From Ammonifex degensii KC4 (lineage in GTDB: Bacteria > Bacillota > Desulfotomaculia > Desulfotomaculales > Ammonificaceae): DNA of 64,000 nucleotides. Both the position numbers and the translations under genes were made by a program. Below the pieces are notes generated by a model that worked only from the letters and a program-made list of their open reading frames with translations, did not search any database and was not told the origin of the DNA. The stretch covers positions 987,501 to 1,051,500 of the forward strand of contig NC_013385.1 in the NCBI RefSeq assembly GCF_000024605.1, read 5' to 3'. Position 1 is the stretch's first letter; each line of letters begins with the position of its first letter. Shown in pieces: positions 6,418 to 58,024 of the stretch.

Positions 6418-6503
6418 ACGAAAGGAGGTGTCTGTGGCCACTTGATCAAAGCGTTGCCGCTGAGGTAAAACAATGGAAAAAGCTACAAACAGGAGGTGGA
6501 AGA

Positions 6504-7391
6504 GTGCGCTTCTCGCAGGGTAGAAGAGCTTTTGCTCTGAGGGTTCTGGTAGTGATGGCGTCAATCGCAGTAGTCCTGGGGGCCGTTCTTGCTCCTGCCT
6601 ACGCTTTTGGTTTCGGCGTGGAAGGCTTTGGGAGCTCCGGGTTCGGCTACAGCACCGGTTTCGGCGTTGGTTCCGGCTTCGGGGATTCCGGGTTCGGCTA
6701 CAGTCTCGGTTCTGGCACCAGCTTCGGCTTTTCCGGTTCTGGATCGAGCTACGGCTTCAGCACCGGTTTCGGTTCGTGGGACTCTGGGCTCGGCTACGGT
6801 CTTGGTCCCAGCCACGGTTCCGGCAGCTTCGGTTTGGGGAGTCTCGGGTATGGCTACGGCTTTGGCTCTGGTTCCAGCTTCTTCTCTTCTCTCTGCAGTC
6901 CTGCCGATCTCGGTTCCGGCTTCAGCTTTAGCTCTGGTTCTGATCTAGGCTCCGGCTACGGTTTCGGTTCTGGTTCCAGCTACAGTTCTGATTCCGGTTC
7001 GGGCTTCAGCCAGAGTTTTGGACTAGGCTCCAGCTACACCTATGGTTCTCTCTCCGGTTTTTCCACCAGCTCAGCCGACTCGAGTTTTGGCTCTGGTCTG
7101 GGTGCTGGACGGACCGACGGTGCGGGCTCCGGTCTTGGGACGGCTCCCAGCGACAGCCAGCTGGATACTCTCGTGTTGTCGCAGCCGTCTCTCAGTGGCT
7201 TCAGTTACAGCGGTCCTCTGGATTCGGCACCTGGGACCGTCAGAGCCCTGGCTGCGGGGGCTATAAAGCACATGGGAATAGCAGTGTACGGAGGCTACGA
7301 CCTCAGAACCGGGTGCAAATATGTATTCGTTAGTGTTTCCGAGTCTCCGAGTGGAGAAGTATGGGTCAAAGTTGCACCGCTCCTGGAGTAG
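6504..7391 (+). CDS. Secreted glycine/serine/phenylalanine-rich low-complexity protein
   Basis: 295-aa protein from GTG 6504 behind a strong AGGAGGTGG at 6491-6499; the frame is open further upstream, but only this start has a Shine-Dalgarno site and puts a signal peptide at the N-terminus. Basic residues, a hydrophobic core (LVVMASIAVVLGAVL) and a likely cut after AYA predict export. The mature part is about 190 residues of irregular FG, YG, SG and GSG units without lysine and with few charges. A more ordered C-terminal domain of about 70 residues follows (AVYGGYDLRTG, YVFVSVSESPSGEVWVKV). It sits between array 1 and a solitary CRISPR repeat, directly before the type III-D operon. No family was recognised; it may be a surface or biofilm protein inserted into the locus. 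Function unknown. Confidence 0.75.
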   Translation: MRFSQGRRAFALRVLVVMASIAVVLGAVLAPAYAFGFGVEGFGSSGFGYSTGFGVGSGFGDSGFGYSLGSGTSFGFSGSGSSYGFSTGFGSWDSGLGYGLGPSHGSGSFGLGSLGYGYGFGSGSSFFSSLCSPADLGSGFSFSSGSDLGSGYGFGSGSSYSSDSGSGFSQSFGLGSSYTYGSLSGFSTSSADSSFGSGLGAGRTDGAGSGLGTAPSDSQLDTLVLSQPSLSGFSYSGPLDSAPGTVRALAAGAIKHMGIAVYGGYDLRTGCKYVFVSVSESPSGEVWVKVAPLLE

Positions 7392-7407
7392 GCCGGTTGC
7401 CCGGCAA

Positions 7408-7437
7408 GTTTGTAGTCTACCTATGAGGGATTGAAGC
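7408..7437 (+). repeat. Solitary decayed CRISPR repeat
   Basis: A 30-nt copy of the array 1 repeat with two changes (T for C at position 9, G for A at position 29), lying 1072 bp beyond the last array repeat and 29 bp before the can2 start. Same orientation as the array. It is either the old leader-distal end of array 1, separated by insertion of the glycine-rich gene, or a retained Cas6 processing site in the 5' untranslated region of the type III-D operon. Confidence 0.95.
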
Positions 7438-7466
7438 ACAGGTCCTTTCTTTTCGGAGGGGTTCTT

Positions 7467-8594
7467 GTGTCGTACGCGATGGTCTGTTTGGTTAGCGAGG
7501 AAAGGATGCAGAACATTATTCCTGTGTTCCAGCGTGGTTTAGATATTAGCGAGGTTTACCTGATATGTTCTCGCGATGCCGAACAAGAAAATTCGCCCTT
7601 GCGGAGAGCTCTGCATGATCTCCAAGCTACCTTAGAGTCAGAAGCCAGCGTCAAGGTTAAAGTGTGGGATCAGTTCGTCGATGCTTACGACCCGGAAAGT
7701 GCTCGTCGAGTTGTATACGAGGCGATAAAGGACGCGCGGAAGAGAACTTCTGCTCAAGTGCTGGTTAATTTCACCGGAGGTACTAAGTGCATGTCTGTCG
7801 GAGCCTTCTTAGCCGCCCAGGATGTCGGCGTCCCCTGCCTTTACGTGGATACCGCCAATCTCCGCCTTATCCGGTATGATCCCGGAGCTTTATCTCTGGA
7901 ATCTCTTCCTTTTGATTTGGCGGGCCGTCTCACCGTTCCCATCTACCTCAGGTCTTACGGCAAGCTGGTGCACCTTCAGCCTCGCCAGCTATTACCTGCT
8001 GCTTTTGATTTTGCTCGAGATCTTTATACCCTCTGGCCTCAGCGGTTTTCCGTTATAGTCTCTTCCCTGGAAAAGTTCGCTAGAGCCATTAGCACCAAGC
8101 AAACTATGGTTGAGGCCGAGGGACTTAATGAGCAGCTGGTTAGTTTGCTTCTCAAATACGGGGCCATAAAACAAAGTGGAAACTATTGGGAAGTAGTCCC
8201 TGACTGGAAGCCGGTGCTCGGGGGGGGGAAGTGGCTTGAGGCCATGGTCTTTCTACTCCTGAAGGAGAGCGGTCACTTTGACGATATCGCCACCGGTATT
8301 TGTGTGGCCGGTCTGGAGAATGAACTCGACGTGGTGATGGTGCGGCACGGGCAACTGGCGGTCATTGAGTGTAAGATCGGAAGCCTAAAAGGGGCTCTTC
8401 CCAAAGTCAGGGCCGTGGCCACTGCGTTGGGCAGGTTCGCTCGGAGTTTCATAGTGACCAGCCAGCTTTCTGAGAAGATTCCTCCTGTTTACAAGGCGAG
8501 AGCCATTCATTATGGTGTGCGCGACATTGTTACTGCTGAAGACTTGCCTCGGGTAGCCGAAAAAGTCATCGCTGGCATGAGAGGTGGGAGATAA
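7467..8594 (+). CDS. can2: CARF-domain nuclease, Card1/Can2-like (DUF1887)
   Basis: 375-aa effector with an N-terminal CARF sensor (NFTGGTK, residues 101-107) and a C-terminal PD-(D/E)XK nuclease (E258 in KWLEAM, D288 in NELDVV, E301-C-K303). Card1/Can2 enzymes are switched on by cyclic tetra-adenylate and cut single-stranded nucleic acid or nick DNA; length matches the family (about 370). Start chosen at GTG 7467 behind GGAGGG; an upstream TTG at 7431 lies inside the decayed repeat and lacks a ribosome site. A run of nine G (8220-8228) lies just before catalytic E258 and could cause slippage frameshifts. It opens the type III-D operon. Confidence 0.85.
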   Translation: MSYAMVCLVSEERMQNIIPVFQRGLDISEVYLICSRDAEQENSPLRRALHDLQATLESEASVKVKVWDQFVDAYDPESARRVVYEAIKDARKRTSAQVLVNFTGGTKCMSVGAFLAAQDVGVPCLYVDTANLRLIRYDPGALSLESLPFDLAGRLTVPIYLRSYGKLVHLQPRQLLPAAFDFARDLYTLWPQRFSVIVSSLEKFARAISTKQTMVEAEGLNEQLVSLLLKYGAIKQSGNYWEVVPDWKPVLGGGKWLEAMVFLLLKESGHFDDIATGICVAGLENELDVVMVRHGQLAVIECKIGSLKGALPKVRAVATALGRFARSFIVTSQLSEKIPPVYKARAIHYGVRDIVTAEDLPRVAEKVIAGMRGGR

Positions 8595-53542: not shown

Positions 53543-54055
53543 ATGTGGCGTAGCAAGAAGCTCCTGGTCGCGCTGGTGCTGGTGCTGACTTTGGCCTTTG
53601 CGATCCCGGTTTTTGCCCAGACGGCGGCCGGCAGGAAGCAAGGCATCCCGGCGAACAGGCCGAACCTGGTGCAAGAGCTGGGTTTGACTTCCGAGCAGTT
53701 GGCCCAGATCCGCGATATCCAGCAGCAGATGTACAACCAGACGCGGGATCTGCGCATCAAGCTCATGGACGCCATGTTCGAGTTGCGGCAGCTGCGCTGG
53801 CAGGAAAACCCGGATCGGGCGGCCATTGACGCCAAGATCAAGGAGATCAAAAACCTGCGCGACCAGCTCCGCCAGGCCGCTCGGGAATACCGCCAGAAGA
53901 TGGATTCGATCCTGACACCTGAGCAGAAGGAGAAGCTCCAGTCCCTGCGCGGTTCCCGGGGGTGGCACGGCCGCGGGGGTATGATGTGTATTGAGCCAGG
54001 GTTTCGTTCACAGCGAGGCTTTCATTTTTGGGTGGGTAATCCCACGGGAGAGTAG
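53543..54055 (+). pseudogene. Spy/CpxP-like periplasmic protein, 3' end cut by an IS
   Basis: Signal peptide (LLVALVLVLTLAFAIPVFA), then the Spy/CpxP LTxxQ-type repeats: LGLTSEQLAQIRDIQQQM and DSILTPEQKEKLQSLRG. About 147 residues are native; the last 23 (from CIEPGF on) are encoded by the IS481-like element. Spy proteins are small chaperones of the envelope induced by two-component systems. The helical core is intact, so the product may still work. GGAAAGGGGGTGAGAG is the ribosome site. Confidence 0.8.
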
Positions 54056-55127
54056 AGAGTTTGTAGGCATCGAAGATGTGCGGAGCCAGGTGATCCAGGA
54101 CTACCACCGGCATAGCCCCTATAGCCGGATGGTAGTGGGAAAGCGAGGTCGCTATTTCCATAGGAGTTTTCCCGTTCAGTTCCCGGCCCAGATGTGGACG
54201 CTGGTAGTTGTAGTAAAGGATCCACCTCTGGGCAGAGATAAGGAAATCCTTCTGGCTTCTGATACCTGCCAGGTAGGGGATGTAGAACTCTTCATCGTCG
54301 GTGCGGTGTGATCTTTCTACATAGCCGTTGGCTTCTTTTCTGCCTGCGGGTATGTTAAGCAGCTGGCAGTCAAGGCGAGAGAAGATAAGGGACATGAGTT
54401 TACGCTTTCTCGAGTTAGGAGGGCCACCGAACTCCGAGCCATTATCGGTCTGGATAAAGATTGTTTGATTAAGGCCGAAGGTTTTAAGCCAGTTTGCCAG
54501 GAGCACAAGGAAAGCGATTCCGTTGGCGAAAGAGAGGGAGTAGGCGAAGGCTATGAACCGGACCCTTGTTCGGACATCGATAGCGGTGAACTGGTAACGG
54601 GGCAGGCGGTTTTTCAGAATAGAGGAGTAGGCTGCGGCTGGGAGGGTTGTCTTATCGGCTATGTGCTTTACATCGACCTGCCAGAAGGAGAAGGGGGCGA
54701 AGGCCTGCACGTCGGTCCAGTATTTTCGGGAGCCTGTTTTGCTTTGGCGTTTGCGGCAGCGGATGTGGTGGCGTTTGAGGATATTTCGTATGGTGTAGGG
54801 GGAGAGCTTAATTTTAAGGCTTTGGTACAGGAGGGAGGCGAGGCGTTTAGGGCCCAGGTTAGTTTCCTGAGCGAGTTTTACGACTAGGGCTTCGAGTTCT
54901 TGAGGGGTACGGTTGGGCATTCTTTTTTTGGGGCCGCGAGGGAGGATACAACCGGACAAGTTTCCGCCGGATTCGTTTAGGCGTTTGCGCAGTTTATAGA
55001 TCCAGCGGACGGAGCAGCCCATTATGCGGGCTACCTCTTTAGGGCTACAGGTGGTGAGGAGGGAGGCCACGGTTTGGGCGATTGCCTGGGGGTTTCCGCT
55101 CCTCTTAAGTTGCTGGTATAATGTCAT
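53847..55127 (-). CDS. IS481-like transposase (integrase core)
   Basis: 426-aa frame: N-terminal HTH (SPKEVARIMGCSVRWIYKLR), then the DDE core with WQVDVKH (D), FIQTDNGSEFGG (D) and NGYVERSHRTDDEEFY (E). The frame runs through the left terminal repeat and about 46 codons into the Spy-like gene before a stop, so the real protein is about 380 aa plus a host-encoded tail. The IS481 family call rests on layout and on ends starting TGT. Confidence 0.87.
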   Translation of the reverse strand: MTLYQQLKRSGNPQAIAQTVASLLTTCSPKEVARIMGCSVRWIYKLRKRLNESGGNLSGCILPRGPKKRMPNRTPQELEALVVKLAQETNLGPKRLASLLYQSLKIKLSPYTIRNILKRHHIRCRKRQSKTGSRKYWTDVQAFAPFSFWQVDVKHIADKTTLPAAAYSSILKNRLPRYQFTAIDVRTRVRFIAFAYSLSFANGIAFLVLLANWLKTFGLNQTIFIQTDNGSEFGGPPNSRKRKLMSLIFSRLDCQLLNIPAGRKEANGYVERSHRTDDEEFYIPYLAGIRSQKDFLISAQRWILYYNYQRPHLGRELNGKTPMEIATSLSHYHPAIGAMPVVVLDHLAPHIFDAYKLSTLPWDYPPKNESLAVNETLAQYTSYPRGRATPGNRAGTGASPSAQVSGSNPSSGGIPERPGGAGRAGF

Positions 55128-55253
55128 CGGGTGGGGTTCCTCCTTTCTTTAAGGTACACTTGCCAGAAGTGTAGAAGGGAGGGGATCCCCACCCTCTTTA
55201 ATACGCTCTTCAACTTCAAAAACCTCTGTGAACGAAACTCTGGCCCTTCTACA
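53987..55253 (-). mobile_element. IS481-like insertion sequence, about 1267 bp
   Basis: Ends TGTA...TACA. Inverted copies of GCCAGRGTTTCGTTCACAG lie at 53995-54013 and 55226-55244, 4 and 5 nt inside the ends. No target duplication is visible: left flank ATGATG, right flank CTGCTT. The right end abuts the leader of array 2 and the left end cuts the Spy-like gene. A rearrangement through the IS is likely. Confidence 0.8.
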
Positions 55254-55255
55254 CT
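55168..55255. repeat. Inverted repeat near the right IS end
   Basis: AGTGTAGAAGGG (55168-55179) is the exact inverse of 55244-55255. One arm is inside the IS, the other spans its right tip. It may be part of the transposase-binding end. Confidence 0.5.
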
Positions 55256-55395
55256 GCTTAAGTCTTTTAACTATTGACAGGAGCCTTGCGCTGTGCTAAC
55301 TTAGAGACAGCGAGAAATTCAAGGCTTCCGGCGAACGGTCGTTTGCGGCGAAGGCGCCATTACGCCGGGGGCCGGATCTCAAGCCCACAAAACGG
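55251..55395 (+). promoter_or_regulatory. CRISPR array 2 leader (145 nt)
   Basis: Same length and layout as the array 1 leader, with scattered substitutions, most in the 50 nt before the final GCCCACAAAACGG. Its start is shared with the IS tip (ACA). Confidence 0.88.
55274..55302 (+). promoter_or_regulatory. Promoter of CRISPR array 2
   Basis: TTGACA (55274-55279), 17-nt spacer, TAACTT (55297-55302), identical hexamers and spacing to array 1. Confidence 0.75.
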
Positions 55396-56487
55396 ATTTG
55401 TAGCCTACCTACGAGGGGTTGAAACATGAACTCTCCTAGCGTCATGGCTTCCACTACCTTCGGATTTGTAGCCTACCTACGAGGGGTTGAAACAGTACTG
55501 AAGAAGGCGGCGCAAGCCCCTTCTCTCCAGATTTGTAGCCTACCTACGAGGGGTTGAAACTACCTACTGCACCCCAGGCTGGGAAGCCCGGGTGCATTTG
55601 TAGCCTACCTACGAGGGGTTGAAACGGTCGTGGACCCCTTTGCGGGCAGCGGAGCTTTCGGCATTTGTAGCCTACCTACGAGGGGTTGAAACCCGATGTA
55701 CCCCCAACGGAGGAAGTCCTGAGGTTCTTATTTGTAGCCTACCTACGAGGGGTTGAAACGGAAAGCGTATGTCTAACGCCCCCCGGATGGTGGAGATTTG
55801 TAGCCTACCTACGAGGGGTTGAAACAGGATATCCCCCGGCTGCACCGGTTCCAGGCAGAAAATTTGTAGCCTACCTACGAGGGGTTGAAACCTGTATACT
55901 TGAGCCACCGCAAGAGGGACTATGTAAAATTTGTAGCCTACCTACGAGGGGTTGAAATGTGGAACGGAGCACCAGCGCCAGGAAGTTCAGTTCCATTTGT
56001 AGCCTACCTACGAGGGGTTGAAACCTTATACCACCCCTTTCGTAAAACGCCTGCAGATCCGATTTGTAGCCTACCTACGAGGGGTTGAAACTGGGCCTGC
56101 CGTGCTTTAGCTCCGCCACCGCCTCCCATTTGTAGCCTACCTACGAGGGGTTGAAACTGCCGCGTCGCCAAGCATGCCGTGAATCGCCACCCACATTTGT
56201 AGCCTACCTACGAGGGGTTGAAACAACTGCACGAGGATGTTGTTGATAAGACTGAAGGGAATTTGTAGCCTACCTACGAGGGGTTGAAACTCAAGGTCTT
56301 CTACTCGGACGGCAATTCTCCCTCTCATTTGTAGCCTACCTACGAGGGGTTGAAACGGGAAGCGCACGTCCAGCGCCCCCCGGACGGTGACGATTTGTAG
56401 CCTACCTACGAGGGGTTGAAACTCCGCCCATGCCGGTCTTCGTCCCCGCCAACACGGATTTATAGCCTGCCGGCAGTCGAGTTGCAC
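55396..56487 (+). CRISPR. CRISPR array 2: 16 repeats plus one decayed terminal repeat
   Basis: Repeats of 30 nt beginning ATTTGTAGCC and ending GGGGTTGAAAC, first at 55396-55425, sixteenth at 56393-56422. The ninth has T for the last C (55958). A strongly decayed terminal copy lies at 56458-56487 (ATTTATAGCCTGCC...). Sixteen spacers of 35-38 nt. No cas gene is adjacent; processing must use the Cas6 serving array 1, whose repeat differs at 3 positions. Spacer 4 encodes a methyltransferase motif, and spacers 6 and 15 are related to each other. Confidence 0.99.
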
Positions 56488-56539: not shown

Positions 56540-56593
56540 GCCTCCGAATGGTTAACAGTGCGGATGTTGCGCTTCGCCGGAGGAGGGGGAGGA

Positions 56594-58024
56594 GTGCTTG
56601 GAGAGCTCCTTATCGGTTCAGGAGTCGTGATAGGGTGGTTGTGGCTGCGAAATTACCGGTGGAGGCGGCTTCACGAAGAACTCAGTCGTCCGGTGGCTAC
56701 AGAGCTCGAGGATAATTCCTGGTACCGGATCGTGGAGCCTGCTGTGATCGGCGGGATTGCTGCTTATGACGCGGTCCACGCCTTAGCCATGATAGACGAT
56801 CGAGTGCTGGAGGCTATGGACTTTTCCAGCAAGCTCGACCTCGGCACGTTCAACCAGCTCAGCGAGTATGTCCGCCAGCAGTTCTTTACTGGTAGCGAGG
56901 CTTCCGTAGCTGGTGCTGTGGAAAGACTGCAGGGGTACACGGCGGAGCAGGTGGTAGCGGCGCACCTGGCTGCCCAAGGGCACGTGGTGGAGTTTCCCGA
57001 CACGCCAAACCAGGAAGGTTGGGATTTGCTGGTGGACGGGCATCCGGTGCAGGTCAAGTGCGTGATGGATTCGGAGCTCGTCCGAGAACACCTGGAGAGA
57101 TTTCCCGATATCCCTGTCATCGTCAATGCCGAGATAGGATCGTACTTTGCTGACAACAGTCACGTGGTGGTAGATAAAGATCTCCTGCACTCGCAGGTGG
57201 CCGAGCAAGTGCACCAAACTATCGACGGGGTTCATGCTCTGGACGTGGCACCTTTTCACGTGCCCCTCGTTACTCTTTTTCTGGCTACTGTGAAAGAAGG
57301 AGCTTTGGTGCTGGACAGACGCATTGCTCCTTCCGAAGCTTTTAAGAACGTGGTCAGGGATGTGGCGTGCGTGGGTGGTGGCGGTTTTGTCGGTAGCAAA
57401 GTGGGCATGGCGCTTGCCGGTATGCTGTTCGGTCCCGGCGGGGCAGCCGTGGGTGTGATAGTAGGCGCGATGATGGGCGCTGTCGTGGGGCGTGTAGTGG
57501 CTAGCAGAATGAGACATTCTCCTTTGGAGAAGGCCAAAGAAGAGCTCAATCAAGCGGTTTACGAAGCAGTGAAGTTTATTCCTGCGGCCGTGGCGGACAA
57601 GCTGGAAGCGCTGGGAAGGAAGGTTAGCGCTGTCAGGCGTCGTCTGAAGATAAGGCCGTGGGACTGGCTGTGGCCTTCCCGCCGGTACCTCATCTACCGA
57701 GAAATAAGGAGCCGGATAGAGAAGAGAATGGAGGAGTTGCGGACAAAGATGGCTGAAGCGCGCAAGGTCGAAGAGATGTATCGCACTCGTGTGGGGTGGG
57801 AAGGCGGGGTGTACAAGCCCGGGCTTGAATTTTGTCGGTGGGCCCTTGAAGAGAAGTTTAACCATCCTGACCTGGTAAAAGCCATGGAAAGAGTGGTTGC
57901 CTGTGTGGAACGGGTGAACGAGGAGGCACGTAAGCTGGGGGCAGGTTGCCCGCCTCCGTGGGAGCGTCTGCGGTCCTGGCTTGAGCGTTTGCGCGTCTGG
58001 CCCCGGCAGGGAGTTGAAGTTTGA
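56594..58024 (+). CDS. Membrane-anchored PD-(D/E)XK-like protein downstream of array 2
   Basis: 476-aa protein from GTG 56594 behind GGAGGAGGGGGAGGA; an in-frame ATG at 56564 lacks a ribosome site. Order: N-terminal membrane helix (LLIGSGVVIGWLWL, 4-17); helical region; a restriction-endonuclease-like core E118-x25-D144 (GWDLLVDG)-x8-Q153-V-K155; a glycine-zipper membrane segment (GGGGFVGSKVGMALAGMLFG onward, about 258-300); a basic, coiled-coil-rich C-terminus of 170 residues with several Trp. The D...QxK core is the form used by several PD-(D/E)XK nucleases. No CARF domain. No named family was recognised. It follows array 2 with no other gene between and ends 1 bp before the opposite-strand kinase, so it belongs to the inserted CRISPR segment. 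A defence or membrane-targeted nuclease is inferred. Confidence 0.72.
   Translation: MLGELLIGSGVVIGWLWLRNYRWRRLHEELSRPVATELEDNSWYRIVEPAVIGGIAAYDAVHALAMIDDRVLEAMDFSSKLDLGTFNQLSEYVRQQFFTGSEASVAGAVERLQGYTAEQVVAAHLAAQGHVVEFPDTPNQEGWDLLVDGHPVQVKCVMDSELVREHLERFPDIPVIVNAEIGSYFADNSHVVVDKDLLHSQVAEQVHQTIDGVHALDVAPFHVPLVTLFLATVKEGALVLDRRIAPSEAFKNVVRDVACVGGGGFVGSKVGMALAGMLFGPGGAAVGVIVGAMMGAVVGRVVASRMRHSPLEKAKEELNQAVYEAVKFIPAAVADKLEALGRKVSAVRRRLKIRPWDWLWPSRRYLIYREIRSRIEKRMEELRTKMAEARKVEEMYRTRVGWEGGVYKPGLEFCRWALEEKFNHPDLVKAMERVVACVERVNEEARKLGAGCPPPWERLRSWLERLRVWPRQGVEV

Follow-up and report, generated by a model that had tools for sequence, protein, structure and literature searches.

The first, and recent, demonstration that a nuclease anchored in the membrane can catch phage DNA as it enters came from SNIPE. 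SNIPE (PD-lambda-1) is a single protein with an N-terminal membrane anchor, a cytoplasmic nuclease and a basic DNA-binding part; its domains are DUF4041 and a GIY-YIG nuclease, and the membrane keeps the nuclease from the chromosome (PMC13190303). PDC-M72B, a candidate phage-defence system of PADLOC with a putative function, comprises short forms of about 190-290 amino acids, some with a DUF697-like partner gene. Literature searches on PDC-M72 and on a glycine-zipper anti-phage nuclease returned nothing. Among the ancillary nucleases of type III CRISPR systems, Can1, Can2/Card1 and NucC are of the PD-(D/E)XK class.

In a 64,000-nucleotide stretch of the Ammonifex degensii KC4 chromosome (the window), we examined a gene that resembles each of these systems in part. 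Its predicted layout is like that of SNIPE, but it belongs to a different family, having a PD-(D/E)XK domain, a glycine zipper and a predicted anchor, and no Pfam match to DUF4041 or GIY-YIG. With PDC-M72B it shares the domain and the conserved E, D and (Q)xK residues, but it is a longer, single-gene form with a predicted N-terminal anchor, a glycine zipper and a basic tail; the second PDC-M72 gene (DUF697-like in cousins) is absent, the flanks being CRISPR array 2 upstream and a convergent histidine kinase downstream. The PDC-M72B profile matched the protein weakly (5.8e-7) and its short-form cousins at 1e-22 to 1e-26, and we place the gene in a new subfamily of long forms, a distant relation of PDC-M72B. 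Can1, Can2/Card1 and NucC have the broad nuclease fold in common with it, whereas in the protein described here neither a CARF nor a SAVED domain was recognised; it carries a predicted membrane anchor and is encoded outside a cas operon. The dynamin-like defence proteins LeoBC overlap weakly, by profile, with its zipper segment, and two dynamin genes lie beside one relative, but it is without a GTPase domain. The gene and the features of its product are as follows.

56594..58024, + strand: long-form PD-(D/E)XK nuclease-like gene, product predicted to be membrane-anchored, 476 aa (open frame, ribosome-binding-site-like sequence, orthologue starts)
56600..56647, + strand: N-terminal hydrophobic helix, predicted single-pass anchor (hydropathy, low-confidence model)
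56900..57193, + strand: PD-(D/E)XK (restriction-endonuclease-like) domain, residues 103-200 (domain-only model, PDB matches)
56945..56947, + strand: E118, putative metal-site residue on helix 1 (invariant in 20 relatives)
57023..57025, + strand: D144, putative metal-binding aspartate (invariant in 20 relatives)
57050..57058, + strand: Q153-V-K155, putative (E/Q)xK element (K invariant in 20 relatives)
57371..57511, + strand: glycine-zipper hydrophobic segment, residues 260-306 (Pfam near-match in orthologues, hydropathy)
57512..58021, + strand: basic tail of helices, residues 307-476, bearing the conserved WLWPSRR motif (model, net charge)

The reading frame is open from GTG 56558 to 58024, and a start at this upstream, in-frame GTG would yield 488 aa. 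GTG 56594, the start given in the initial annotation, is the better one, since orthologues begin there and a strong ribosome-binding-site-like sequence, GGAGGAGGGGGAGGA, lies immediately 5' of it at 56579-56593; GTG 56558 is possible but less likely.

Residues E118, D144 and K155 are unchanged across 20 relatives, some of them cousins near 25% identity, and the motif is therefore not a product of chance. Position 153 is more permissive (Q in 16/20, N in 3/20, S in 1/20). The protein has the acidic residue, aspartate and (D/E/Q)xK element of PD-(D/E)XK enzymes, correctly spaced. A Pfam scan of the 488-aa frame returned only a sub-threshold match to PDDEXK_5 at residues 124-169, and searches of the PDB by sequence gave no match with the single protein and low-complexity matches only with a profile. 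The full-length model was usable only for residues 113-200 and the helical tail, and helical bundles dominated its PDB matches, so the nuclease domain was folded alone. Residues 86-221, modelled from a three-sequence alignment (the protein and two relatives), formed an alpha/beta domain (pLDDT 82.4, pTM 0.75) whose elements (H17-42, E60-62, E65-70, H75-84, E90-93, E106-109) follow the helix-strand-strand-helix-strand-strand order expected for a PD-(D/E)XK fold. Foldseek matches of this model include MspJI, Bax1, Ecl18kI, I-Ssp6803I, Hjc, CdiA-CT and DdmD, and the VIA rows include CdiA-CT, influenza PA-N, the XisH-like 2okf and BsaWI. The structural assignment is supported by agreement among the matches, which are mostly PD-(D/E)XK proteins, none individually significant (the best E value from Foldseek is 0.037 and the best Z is 6.3). 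Conserved residues and model together support placing the protein, as a predicted member, in the PD-(D/E)XK superfamily.

The sequence gives good support for attachment to the membrane, and the topology is a prediction from it. The protein opens with 18 hydrophobic residues, after which comes a basic RNYRWRR stretch; N-terminal hydropathy is 1.5 in this protein and lies at 1.9-2.7 in four orthologues, and the full-length model places a helix at residues 2-30 with low confidence. The bulk of the protein is predicted to be cytoplasmic, behind an N-terminal single-pass anchor. The glycine-zipper segment is poorly modelled, with a hydropathy of 2.0, and its counterparts in orthologues narrowly miss the cutoff for Pfam Gly-zipper_Omp. 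The tail is modelled as long helices at pLDDT 80-90, and the last 150 residues carry a net charge of +13. The initial annotation had described an N-terminal helix, a restriction-endonuclease-like core built on E118, D144 and Q153-V-K155, a glycine zipper and a basic coiled-coil tail, and each of these parts, the tail as basic helices, was recovered by residue conservation, hydropathy, Pfam near-match or model.

Relatives of the nuclease are patchily distributed. A phylum scan found a match in 17/398 genomes, the weakest spanning the zipper only; such zipper-only matches (G034, G025 and similar genomes) were left out of the relatives. The long form occurs in 5/113 genomes of the class and is absent from the sister species G001. 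Scanning genome contigs yielded a single relative, in Halomonas, and viral contigs, when scanned with further relatives as queries, gave nothing or only one UViG; none was found in the phage records searched, and one plasmid record carries a relative. As a raw tally of neighbours, defence genes adjoin several of these long forms. The Halomonas copy has DISARM-like neighbours, with a DrmD-like helicase on one side and a type IIG/DrmMI-like methylase on the other. Elsewhere, long forms adjoin a GajB/RTasHel-like UvrD helicase (G178), lie two genes from a UvrD-like helicase (G094), or lie about 1.6 kb from a restriction-methylase (the UViG). One genome holds two copies, the first near a type II methylase and a HEC-01A-like ATPase (G268a) and the second adjoining the two dynamin genes (G268b). 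Counted against a defence reading are the ordinary or insertion-element neighbours of the copies in G029, G345, G471, G419, G395 and Paracoccus.

We consider the gene most probably to encode a membrane-tethered, stand-alone PD-(D/E)XK defence nuclease, carried as a mobile-island gene and independent of array 2, a reading to which we assign a probability of roughly 0.5. The N-terminal helix, and probably also the glycine zipper, would hold the nuclease at the inner membrane with the basic helical tail on the cytoplasmic side, and the tether would separate the nuclease from the chromosome. Its most likely role would be a one-gene antiviral defence, cutting foreign DNA as it enters or while it is at the membrane, as the unrelated SNIPE does. 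The gene would have arrived with a mobile island, array 2 being its neighbour at an insertion hotspot and not its partner. Of the two roles offered by the initial annotation, a separate defence gene or an ancillary CRISPR effector, the former is favoured, several relatives lying beside restriction, DISARM-like, helicase and dynamin genes. If this is true, the occurrence of the SNIPE layout in a second, unrelated family would suggest that membrane tethering is a general means of discriminating self from non-self DNA.

A rather unlikely alternative makes it a membrane protein with an inter-bacterial or stress-related role, or else a self-targeting (abortive) nuclease that breaks down the host's own nucleic acid once infection disturbs the membrane. 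The structural likeness to the CdiA-CT nuclease points this way, glycine zippers and dynamin neighbours would suit a sensor of membrane damage, and the LeoBC profile overlaps the zipper region. However, that overlap is confined to the low-complexity zipper, the N-terminus looks like an anchor, and neither a secretion signature nor an adjoining immunity gene was seen. It is unlikely, too, that this member of the fold is catalytically inactive or has a housekeeping role, for example as a membrane DNA-binding or repair factor. Three orthologues from one genus do share a radical-SAM neighbour, and the PDC-M72B-like cousins in G346 and G129 sit among housekeeping genes, which was likewise counted against a defence reading; but the catalytic triad is retained unchanged even in highly diverged relatives, and the patchy distribution, with absence from the sister species, argues against a core function.

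The third alternative, and a distinctly improbable one, assigns the protein to the genome's CRISPR systems as an ancillary effector, co-expressed with array 2 and active at the membrane in type III (or type I) immunity. The features that bear on it lie immediately upstream of the gene.

53985..55247, - strand: insertion element between a CpxP-like gene and array 2 (ends inferred from inverted repeats)
55248..55395, + strand: leader of array 2, common to four sister arrays
55396..56422, + strand: CRISPR array 2, 16 near-identical repeats ATTTGTAGCCTACCTACGAGGGGTTGAAAC, 65-68 bp apart (repeat positions)

The array ends in a decayed terminal repeat at about 56458-56487, some 110 bp from the nuclease-like gene. 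As had been claimed, located repeats and open reading frames confirm that the gene runs in the direction of the array with no cas gene between them. No recognised promoter or terminator was found in this interval, so that array and gene may be co-transcribed; its predicted structure does not exceed that of shuffled sequences (z -0.19). The genome also has Cas10-type loci, one of them directly behind a sister array. The attachment of the gene to array 2 is real as adjacency, but it is weak as evidence: the chromosome holds five arrays of this repeat type, all in one direction and each with some gene behind it (behind three others, a menaquinone-synthesis-like gene, an unnamed gene and a cmr1-like gene, named by reading), so that adjacency says little alone and some gene is expected near one of them.

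The history of the site bears on the same question. The insertion element, to which an rve-type transposase at 53847-55127 belongs, interrupts both the CpxP-like gene and the array 2 leader. It has removed from that leader the inverted repeat GTCGTCGACC...GGTCGACGAC that precedes the sister arrays, and uptake of new spacers by array 2 may be impaired. The sister species G001 has a histidine kinase with 95% identity, and there the interval from the CpxP-like gene to this kinase holds a TnpB-type element, with neither array nor nuclease; in G002 the two flanking genes are 187 bp apart. Because the site is transposon-filled in one genome and empty in the other, we regard it as a mobile-element hotspot for array 2 and the nuclease gene.

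The relatives differ in CRISPR association. None of the 13 other distinct long forms has an array near it within the DNA read, some contigs ending within a few kilobases; the script used did pick up the window's two arrays and another in L040. The short forms of this class are found in four genomes of four different families, and 4/4 copies lie inside type III loci, at the following positions.

L040:9219-10608, L058:9124-9690, L093:9713-10282 and L094:9540-11009: short-form PDC-M72B nucleases in type III loci

Three of them lie beside cmr genes (G031, which also has a small array, G481 and G449) and the fourth beside Cas10, WYL-regulator and Cas1 genes (G466, where a further weak fragment match occurs on another contig). 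The tree unites these four (94/94) and sets the clade of long forms apart from them (100/99). The short forms in G346, G129 and G637 have no CRISPR link, and the link is for this reason assigned to the four-member clade. A DUF697-like partner gene adjoins the nuclease in G031 (sub-threshold Pfam match) and lies beside it in G466 and G637 (by reading), so that 2/4 of the type III-located short forms have one.

The short-form clade favours a CRISPR effector, yet the separation of the long forms from it in the tree, the lack of arrays in the DNA read beside long-form relatives and the lack of a recognised CARF or SAVED sensor in Pfam and PADLOC scans all argue against that role here. Recurrent location in type III loci was seen for the short-form clade and not for the long forms read. 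The proposal of an ancillary CRISPR effector is accordingly not supported for this gene, with no arrays in the DNA read beside its long-form relatives and neither array nor nuclease at the G001 site, and stands in part for the wider superfamily; CRISPR association fits the distant short-form cousins better than the gene at 56594-58024. Occurring in type III loci of four bacterial families, the short-form clade points to a possible undescribed and directly testable accessory module, which may possibly already stand in published lists of type III accessory genes. It is very doubtful that the membrane-attached PD-(D/E)XK superfamily is one module that serves on its own as well as in the role of a type III effector, with the short forms as a new ancillary module, a DUF697-like membrane partner at some loci, and the long form recruited to that immunity by virtue of its position behind array 2.

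Several minor observations concern the arrays and the type III locus of the window. Spacers 6 (55760-55795) and 15 (56357-56392) of array 2 resemble each other, which suggests two acquisitions from related targets, and spacer 4 reads as a DNA methyltransferase motif (VVDPFAGSGAFG). Ahead of the CARF genes, at 6500-7437, a repetitive protein rich in Gly, Ser and Phe, whose N-terminus is signal-like, is flanked by array 1 and by a single decayed repeat (about 7408-7437). At 7431-8594, within the type III locus of the window itself, lies a gene that we read as a CARF and PD-(D/E)XK fusion resembling Can2/Card1, containing ELDVVMVRHGQLAVIECKIG.
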